Made by a program: the position numbers and the translations under genes. The notes beneath the pieces are model-generated. The model made no database searches and was not told where the DNA came from. It worked only from the letters and a program-made list of their open reading frames with translations. Shown here piece after piece: positions 7,264 through 30,917 of a stretch of DNA of 30,917 nucleotides. The stretch lies in the IMG/VR virus record IMGVR_UViG_3300032116_000905, positions 1-30,917 of that record; one strand, 5' to 3'. Every line of letters begins with the position of its first letter. Position 1 is the stretch's first letter. Origin of the DNA: a virus.

Positions 7264-7335
7264 TTTAGCGTGTCCCGAAGCTTCGGCAACCAAAAAAACC
7301 CCCTGCCAATTTCTCGGCAAGGGTTTAGTTTCTAG
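7264..7335. repeat. intergenic cassette, copy 1
   Basis: This 72-bp stretch is nearly identical to 7594-7667. It carries the 12-bp palindrome CCGAAGCTTCGG next to GCGTGTC, then a terminator hairpin (7297-7325). Confidence 0.85.
7297..7325 (-). terminator. terminator of 7359-7517
   Basis: Stem AACCC...GCC/GGC...GGGTT, followed on the minus strand by TTTTTTT. It is part of the duplicated cassette. Confidence 0.75.
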
Positions 7336-7593: not shown

Positions 7594-7667
7594 TTTAGCG
7601 TGTCCCGAAGCTTCGGCAACCAAAAAATAAACCCCTGCCAATTTCTCGGCAAGGGTTTAGTTTCTAG
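7594..7667. repeat. intergenic cassette, copy 2
   Basis: Near-identical copy of 7264-7335, with CCGAAGCTTCGG at 7605-7616 and a terminator hairpin at 7629-7657 that serves 7675-7971. Confidence 0.85.
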
Positions 7668-8606: not shown

Positions 8607-8630
8607 GCGTGTCGCAGATAATTTTTTAGA

Positions 8631-9441: not shown

Positions 9442-9672
9442 CTACTTCCACTCGCCTAATGCGATCATCAGTTCGTTAGGTGAAACTTCCAGCTCACGAC
9501 ATAAAGTAGCCATCATACCTGACGGGATTTGTCGTTGCTTGTGAAAGTATCGGCTCAGGCTAGACTTCTGTAAGCCTGTTGCGATAGCAAACTGATTTAG
9601 GGACTTGTAGCCCTGTTGCTCATACTTAGAAATAAACCAAGTCCAAGTATCAACCTTTTTAGTTCTTGCCAT
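9442..9672 (-). CDS. XRE-like helix-turn-helix DNA-binding protein
   Basis: This 76-residue protein matches the Cro/CI helix-turn-helix pattern: SLNQFAIATGLQKSSLSRYFHKQRQIPSGMMATLCRELEVSPNELM. Helices 2 and 3 are roughly FAIATGL and KSSLSRYFHKQ, and the rest of the domain is complete. It should act as a transcriptional repressor or regulator of phage genes. The start at 9672 has GAGGTGAG upstream; an in-frame extension by 8 codons is less likely. The promoter is at 9703-9731 and a conserved hairpin follows the gene. Confidence 0.8.
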   Translation of the reverse strand: MARTKKVDTWTWFISKYEQQGYKSLNQFAIATGLQKSSLSRYFHKQRQIPSGMMATLCRELEVSPNELMIALGEWK

Positions 9673-9702
9673 TTTCTCACCTCGTTTCATCGGCACTTAT
9701 TC

Positions 9703-16981: not shown

Positions 16982-17266
16982 TTATAGATTTACCAAAGTT
17001 TCGTCAAGCTCTTTCGGTGGATAATCTGGAACTCCACCTGCCATACAAATACCAACTTTGATAACAAGCTCGGCTGTGTTCATTCCCATAGCCTTAGCAA
17101 TTTCCTCTAACAATTCACTACTAGGCTGTTTCTTGCCCTGCTCTACTTCCCATAGGTAGTTGTGAGAGATTACGGCTTTGGTATTGTTGATCATCTGCCT
17201 AAGAGTGTATCTTGTTTCTTTCCGGTATTCAGAGATCACCCAAGATAACGCTGTTCTAAATAACAC
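16982..17266 (-). CDS. ClgR-like XRE transcriptional regulator
   Basis: This 94-residue protein matches actinobacterial ClgR/PspA-type regulators: LFRTALSWVISEYRKETRYTLRQM (helix 1 region), then NYLWEVEQGKKQPSSELLEEIAKAMGM, close to the family's GYLSEVERG-K-x-SSELL signature. ClgR activates Clp protease and stress genes in actinobacteria, so a phage copy could redirect host proteolysis or control its own operon. The GTG at 17266, after AAAGGA, aligns with the short N-terminus of ClgR; an ATG 7 codons upstream is the alternative. Confidence in the HTH is high, in the ClgR identity moderate. Confidence 0.75.
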   Translation of the reverse strand: MLFRTALSWVISEYRKETRYTLRQMINNTKAVISHNYLWEVEQGKKQPSSELLEEIAKAMGMNTAELVIKVGICMAGGVPDYPPKELDETLVNL

Positions 17267-17311
17267 TAGACACTTTCCTTTCGTCATTTACTAACTTCTT
17301 TTCTGGTGAGA

Positions 17312-29748: not shown

Positions 29749-30195
29749 TTAGAGTTCAGATCTGCAAGTCAAGCATAAAAAGACATTGTAGCCTTTTTTA
29801 CCATTCTGACTGATCGGAACAACATCTACTCTAGCAGGAGTTTCGCATTTATCGCAAATGCTCTCAATTAGCCACTCAACCTCGATATTTCTATCTTTAG
29901 CCACTTTCATAGCTTTTTGTAGCGCGTGATCTGGCCCTGGACCTTCTGTTCTTCTCAAGAAAGGTCTTGTATCAGAGACATCAGCCACTAGCCTAATCAA
30001 TTTGCAATCGCAAGACATTCTGCTAGGTGTACAAGAAACAACATCAGCAAAAGTTGCGTGTCTTGTATGTGGATGTCCACAAATACAAATTCGTCCATCA
30101 CGAATTCTTGGACTACTTTCTGATCTTTCAATCGCCTCTAAAGTCTCTTCTTCCGAAGAATTAAAAAAGCTCATAGGGTCTGTATTTTGTTCCAA
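29749..30195 (-). CDS. Cys/His-rich protein, TTG start
   Basis: This 148-residue protein has CICGHPHTRHATFADVVSCTPSRMSCDC (about 33-60), a Cys/His cluster typical of a small phage zinc domain, and a second ribbon CDKCETP...CLTC near the end. A central segment (GPGPDHALQKAMKVAKDRNIEVEWLIESI) is helical. TTG at 30195 follows TTGGAG 6 bases upstream and starts the operon 30195-27926; an ATG lies eight codons in. Function unknown. Confidence 0.65.
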   Translation of the reverse strand: MEQNTDPMSFFNSSEEETLEAIERSESSPRIRDGRICICGHPHTRHATFADVVSCTPSRMSCDCKLIRLVADVSDTRPFLRRTEGPGPDHALQKAMKVAKDRNIEVEWLIESICDKCETPARVDVVPISQNGKKGYNVFLCLTCRSEL

Positions 30196-30258
30196 TTTTT
30201 ACTCCAATCGATTTATAAAAATGATACCTTAGAAAACAACTATAACACAACTTAAAAC

Positions 30259-30353
30259 ACACTAAACGGATATTAACAACCTTTTTTTACTACGCGTATA
30301 GAGAAAAAATTCCGTGGTAATGGAAAATATAGTTGCTAATATCCGTTTAGTGT
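30259..30353. repeat. 22-bp inverted repeat with 51-bp loop
   Basis: The arms 30259-30280 and 30332-30353 share CACTAAACGGATATTA and differ at one position. The loop contains the palindrome TACGCGTA. Confidence 0.9.
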
Positions 30354-30367
30354 ATAGTTTAATAGTT

Positions 30368-30472
30368 ATACTATTCACTTTTTTAAAAAACTTTTCACTT
30401 TTTCCGATAGTATCTCCCCTATAGATACTATTCACTTTTTTAAATAATTTTTTAATTTTTCTGATAGTATCT
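30368..30472. repeat. two 48-bp direct repeats with nested inverted half-sites
   Basis: 30368-30415 and 30425-30472 are direct repeats. Each starts ATACTATTCACTTTTTTAAA and ends ATAGTATCT. At their junction ATAGTATCT and AGATACTAT form a 9-bp inverted pair (30407-30431). The AT-rich repeat structure suggests protein-binding sites, an origin or operators. Confidence 0.85.
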
Positions 30473-30511
30473 TTCCAAGAGTTGTACAAAGCGATCAAAA
30501 AAGGAGCTCCA

Positions 30512-30917
30512 ATGAGTAAAAAATATGACGGTTTTGACCCCAATTTTGACCCTCGAGTGTACAAAAATTTATATAATATACACCGAAAATACGACCCCCA
30601 ACGTAGATCGTTTTGGATCAAAACAAACAACAATTCCACCTCAAATTTAGAGTTCATACCTGCCTTAGTTTTAAGTTTTCTTGCCTGGCCGATCATGATT
30701 TGGTATTGGACGAAATCTTTCATTTACCCAATTTTCTCAATTCCGGCTTCAGCGACACTTTTTGGCTTTTCCATATATTTCTGGATTTTTGATCAAAGTC
30801 CATCTTTCTATCTTTGCACCGGATATCTATTTTTGATCCTAAGCTTCTTTTTCTGGGCTTTAAGCCTTCAAGACCTAATTTTGAAAAATCACTTTCCAGA
30901 TGAAAATACACAAAAAA
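30512..30917 (+). CDS. membrane protein, 3' end beyond the window
   Basis: At least 135 residues are visible and the frame is open to the right edge. The N-terminus is polar (MSKKYDGFDPNFDPRVYKNL...), with a hydrophobic region from about 50 to 120 forming two or three transmembrane helices (IPALVLSFLAWPIMIWYW, FGFSIYFWIF, CTGYLFLILSFFFWAL). AAAGGAG lies 6 bases before the ATG. It is transcribed away from the minus-strand genes. Aromatic-rich helices and AT-rich codons differ from the rest of the window. No family is recognised. Confidence 0.7.
   Translation, partial: MSKKYDGFDPNFDPRVYKNLYNIHRKYDPQRRSFWIKTNNNSTSNLEFIPALVLSFLAWPIMIWYWTKSFIYPIFSIPASATLFGFSIYFWIFDQSPSFYLCTGYLFLILSFFFWALSLQDLILKNHFPDENTQK

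Follow-up and report, generated by a model that had tools for sequence, protein, structure and literature searches.

A Divergent Region with Putative Tandem Operators and a Separate Inverted Repeat in Large Actinobacteriophage-like Phages

Introduction

The stoperators of the cluster A mycobacteriophages L5 and Bxb1 are 13-bp asymmetric sites, which are found at many places and also stop elongation (PMC6550527). The locus described here is like them in having a phage-specific site at several places, with promoter-associated copies, and in that the site sequence changes between related actinophages (PMC6550527). It is unlike them in that its site is a dyad of 45-50 bp at two loci. The RepA_N iterons of the PLE satellite, pSK41 and pTZ2162 are likewise direct repeats in which inverted half-sites converge towards an A/T tract (PMC7145576). 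The present repeats share that layout, but have a copy before a helicase gene and half-sites about 40 bp apart. The origins of geminiviruses and nanoviruses, with species-specific iterons and a stem around a conserved short motif (PMC10653810), are alike in layout only, whereas this locus belongs to a large double-stranded DNA phage and its ACGCGT core is unrelated in sequence. Actinomycetia phage DSL-LC01 has its own GTACTTAGA dyads at both loci as well as an ACGCGT core, but differs in half-site and arm sequences. The publication of the DSL-LC01 authors does not mention the element.

This report addresses a region between two divergent genes in a virus record of 30,917 bases, the whole of which is referred to as the window. 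We judge it moderately probable that the region is a control hub, with tandem operators for a dimeric phage protein and a separate, single-copy inverted repeat as a cis site. Such a hub would provide a control circuit open to testing in a large group of freshwater phages, most of them uncultured, in which hardly any gene has an assigned function.

Source Phage and Gene Setting

The window is probably a fragment of a phage, and end repeats were not detected in it. The best named-phage match of its genes is DSL-LC01 (OQ999401; 129 kb), with 67% identity for the AAA ATPase and 79% for the terminase; further matches are to a group of large phages known from metagenomes, of freshwater and other origin. 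The gene order is that of DSL-LC01 and of L087, a contig of 137.5 kb with a terminal redundancy of at least 100 bp. The relatives compared are contigs, several of them incomplete, and one near-identical contig of 20 kb ends before the repeat region. A whole-window megablast against cultured phages found no relative, and a search for close relatives through the left protein, using exact peptide patterns in viral_contigs, also returned none. A small serine recombinase (218-239 aa) is encoded in 10 of 18 related records, for example at L103:2068-2754 and in L104-L109, and in DSL-LC01.

The first-pass annotation had described very AT-rich DNA in which transcription diverges, and this is borne out: the intergenic DNA (30196-30511) has 27% GC, and the genes on both sides read outward. 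The features are as follows, the two promoter elements being readings of the sequence.

29749..30195, minus strand: left gene, a 148-aa double zinc-ribbon-like protein, with a TTG start behind GGAG
30239..30247, minus strand: putative extended -10 TGTTATAGT of a leftward promoter
30259..30280, no strand: arm 1 of the inverted repeat, a phage-specific sequence (repeat search, shuffles, relatives)
30281..30331, no strand: conserved core between the arms, which contains TACGCGTA, with ACGCGT at 30292-30297
30332..30353, no strand: arm 2 of the inverted repeat
30368..30413, no strand: putative operator unit 1, with ATACTAT at 30368-30374 and ATAGTAT at 30407-30413, 39 bp from start to start
30423..30472, no strand: putative operator unit 2, AGATACTAT ... 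ATAGTATCT, which adjoins the right gene
30462..30470, plus strand: putative extended -10 TGATAGTAT of a rightward promoter, overlapping the right half-site of unit 2
30512..30916, plus strand: right gene, start only, which runs off the contig; ribosome-binding site AAAGGAG

The left gene heads a long leftward unit, and its orthologs stand beside the element in about 30 relatives. The AlphaFold model of its product has a pLDDT of 91; a fold search of the PDB gave no match better than E 2.4, and a family search gave no hit. The product of the right gene is hydrophobic and probably a membrane protein. Cultured Microbacterium phages carry the left-gene ortholog without the divergent region and without the ACGCGT core.

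Structure and Conservation of the Repeats

The inverted repeat that was first noticed, with arms of 22 bp and a loop of 51 bp, is present as claimed; its arms are complementary at 21 of 22 positions, and none of 200 shuffles of the 270-bp region equaled it. The two direct repeats are also present and adjacent (30368-30424 and 30425-30481; 84% identical), but their period is 57 bp rather than the 48 bp given initially. They contain the half-sites that had been seen, ATACTAT beginning at 30368 and 30425 and ATAGTAT at 30407 and 30464. Exact ATACTAT occurs at three other places in the 31-kb window, which is near chance. Two further features had been missed: a short palindrome, ATAGTTATACTAT (30362-30374), which overlaps the first half-site, and a close tail-to-tail pair, ATAGTATCT-7-AGATACTAT, formed by R1 and A2 of neighbouring units. 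The proposal that the two types of repeat form one complex does not survive comparison with the relatives, in which the inverted and direct repeats represent different families of sites.

The divergent region and the gene order around it are kept in relatives. In L087, the intergenic region aligns end to end, and the alignment is poorer in the first part of the right gene next to it; contigs L097 and L100 also share it. Between the window and its close relatives, there are 0-5 differences in each half-site segment, 4 in the 51 positions of the core and 7-8 in the 63 of the leftward leader, against 16-17 in the 44 positions of the arms and 21-24 in the 39 of the right leader. As this uneven spread indicates, change is more rapid in the arms than in the core or the half-sites. 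DSL-LC01 has the same gene order and a divergent region, with a longer intergenic stretch of about 780 bp.

A Matching Dyad before the Helicase Gene

A search for the half-sites elsewhere, which the first-pass annotation had suggested, found one more place in each of the L087 and L097 records. There, a single unit with the same layout as operator unit 2 stands between a RuvC-like gene and a helicase gene (SNF2-related by Pfam), and lies about 30-40 bp upstream of the helicase ATG. The window is a fragment and this second place falls outside it, so that it is seen in the genomes of relatives. A scan of three genomes confined dyads with 0-1 mismatch to two places in each, namely 22784 and 22841 (first place) and 128154 (second place) in G001, 100771 and 100827 (first place) and 14085 (second place) in G017, and 18059 and 89010 in DSL-LC01. 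Shuffled half-sites gave no dyads in the same scan of the three genomes.

The class of half-site changes jointly at both places among these phages, being ATACTAT in some, ATATTAGCA in others and GTACTTAGA in others again. The phages of L084 and L044 have ATTAGCA/TGCTAAT half-sites in the divergent region and before the helicase gene alike, and DSL-LC01 has GTACTTAGA/TCTAAGTAC at both places, with at most 1 mismatch. Nine further helicase genes were examined and upstream units were visible for most of them; those with TACGGTC (the phage of L058) and GTGCTAGTATG (that of L083) have a like site in their own divergent region. The matched-pairing score was 268 against 246 +/- 4.4 for permuted pairs, with 0 of 20,000 permutations as high, in a test that only partly controls for the relatedness of the phages. 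In the same automated test, the match to the phage's own element ranked first in 7 of 13 phages and not in the other 6, so that the evidence for co-variation comes mainly from seven phages, including related ones.

Two unlinked sites that drifted independently would not stay alike. The joint change at both places thus implies a trans-acting DNA-binding protein with an evolving specificity, and tandem operators are the best reading of the direct repeats. The original suggestion of a replication origin or a regulatory switch is therefore partly upheld: a switch in the sense of an operator is supported for the direct repeats, through unlinked recurrence and co-variation, and an origin, for which no switch of GC skew was seen at the element, may apply to the inverted repeat. 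On this reading, operator specificity would have shifted repeatedly with both distant copies keeping in step, and the operator would connect a gene of the replication module with an early-type divergent region.

Proposed Control Circuit

The circuit that we favour would work as follows. In a large actinobacteriophage-like phage, the region would be the hub between two transcription units that diverge from it, and the 57-bp repeats would be two tandem operators, each with inverted half-sites about 40 bp apart and A/T tracts between them. A putative phage-encoded dimeric DNA-binding protein would occupy the half-sites; lying over the -10, it would block RNA polymerase and repress the rightward promoter. 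In the replication/recombination module, the same protein would repress the SNF2-type helicase gene at its promoter, which would couple the two promoters. The other half-site lies about 40 bp farther upstream, beyond A/T tracts, an arrangement that points to a dimer bending or looping the DNA. The inverted repeat would be a cis site of its own, present once per genome. A second protein with sequence specificity would most likely bind it, and it would act either as an origin-like initiator site or as an operator for the leftward promoter.

Repression is inferred from the overlap of the right half-site with an extended -10-like sequence. By eye, TGnTAnTAT is found at the right half-site, in the direction of the gene, in 8 of 13 helicase-upstream units, and TGnTAnnnT is found at the place of the leftward promoter in several relatives. 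These readings of the extended -10 are matches to a short consensus, and a standard promoter scan at the region found nothing above chance. A phage-specific activator or an RNA polymerase factor could act in place of the repressor. Upstream of the helicase gene there is no divergent gene, yet the left half-site is retained there, which argues against two simple back-to-back promoters.

Small HTH_3 proteins are encoded in 8 of 11 records of relatives, with no link to the dyad sites, and none was found in DSL-LC01. Two small proteins on the minus strand of the window, at 9442-9696 and 16982-17287, have weak HTH_3 matches below the cut-off and are candidates for a regulator.

The Inverted Repeat as a Separate Site

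About 20 relatives have an inverted repeat at the same place, around a core with ACGCGT or ACGCGCGT. Since the ACGCG motif served to select the elements of the more distant relatives, its presence in them is partly a result of that selection, which does not hold for the pairing of the arms. The ACGCGT core is partly alternating purine-pyrimidine. The sequences of the arms are wholly different between phages, and most of the inverted repeats in relatives are rarely reached by shuffles; that of L087 is weak and was missed by a strict search. Core and arms occur in one copy per genome in the three genomes scanned. A 15-mer from an arm gave 37 single matches in viral_contigs, about the number expected by chance for the size of the collection, and none had both arms.

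These properties make an origin-like site or an operator the most plausible reading of the inverted repeat, as far as its sequence can suggest. It may be that only the inverted repeat and its core act as an origin or as another single-copy cis site (e.g., pac), with the arms bound by the phage's own initiator and the direct repeats as unrelated operators. We hold this to be a credible reading with clearly less than even chances. One copy per genome, a conserved core between phage-specific flanking arms, and short tandem repeats inside the arms of L053, L055, L069, L073, L045 and L076 all speak for it. Against it, the GC skew shows no switch, and arm 1 overlaps the expected -35 of the putative leftward promoter, which a simple operator would explain equally well. 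If the single-copy element is an origin, replication initiation would be placed in these genomes for the first time. A bolder form, which we regard as rather unlikely, would be a new kind of origin in large actinobacteriophages, combining phage-specific inverted iteron arms, a conserved ACGCGT core and adjoining operators that would tie helicase expression to this control region.

That the whole complex is an origin, with the 57-bp repeats as iterons and the inverted repeat and AT-rich DNA as the melting site, is unlikely. Tandem semi-palindromic repeats with A/T tracts do resemble RepA_N iterons (PMC7145576), the region with its two 57-bp repeats is very AT-rich (27% GC), and the core of the single-copy inverted repeat is conserved, with arms that in several relatives hold iteron-like tandem repeats. 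However, the dyad stands alone before the helicase gene in relatives, and a RepA_N domain was not found in 11 records by a search that had no positive control. The skew analysis, which had been proposed as a check on the origin, covered DSL-LC01 and the 137.5-kb relative and showed a switch at the element in neither, and the cumulative GC skew rises through it in DSL-LC01 and G001; this is a weak test in phages and a weak argument against a bidirectional origin.

A structured RNA (5' leader or small RNA) in which compensatory changes maintain the stem would account for arms that change together and remain complementary. Among the mismatches in the stem, G.T (12) and A.C (11) are about equal, with no excess of wobble pairs on either strand, and without a G·U bias an RNA stem is not supported. 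An apparent 2:1 excess of G.T, from a loose alignment of the stem, was gone with strict arms. Additionally, there is no Rfam match and the putative leftward promoter lies downstream of the stem, which leaves an RNA very unlikely.

An invertible switch, in which recombination between the 22-bp arms flips the 51-bp core, is highly improbable: the orientation of the core does vary between groups of relatives (with L084/L086/L047, the core of the window and of L087 gives a better alignment when reversed) and a serine recombinase gene is common among these phages, but the orientation needs 2 changes on a tree of 20 phages against 6.9 expected by shuffling and is the same in all four close relatives, a stability that makes frequent inversion unlikely, while the arms are unlike symmetric recombinase sites of 26-28 bp and the recombinase gene is far away.

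Other Repeats in the Window

The first 120 bases of the window, at the contig end, consist of perfect tandem 15-mers, TAGCCCCCCTAGCCC; these could be genuine or could result from the assembly there. A 44-bp repeat of 95% identity occurs at 7292-7335 and 7624-7667, 332 bp apart. Several TTCGTTAGAAGTTT-like copies lie between 24217 and 26711, and are present in L087 too.

A motif of about 28 nt, ACACCTAAGCAAGTGTCTAAACTGCTTA, is found on the minus strand at 8629, 9408, 13032, 15041 and 15716, and none on the plus strand or in shuffles. It can form an H-type pseudoknot, and both helices co-vary between copies (ACAC/GTGT to AGAC/GTCT; AAGCA/TGCTT to GAGCA/TGCTC). The genomes of L087 and L084 hold more copies and that of DSL-LC01 holds none. 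Several copies lie about 85-100 nt upstream of start codons, and one lies between the SSB gene and the next gene.
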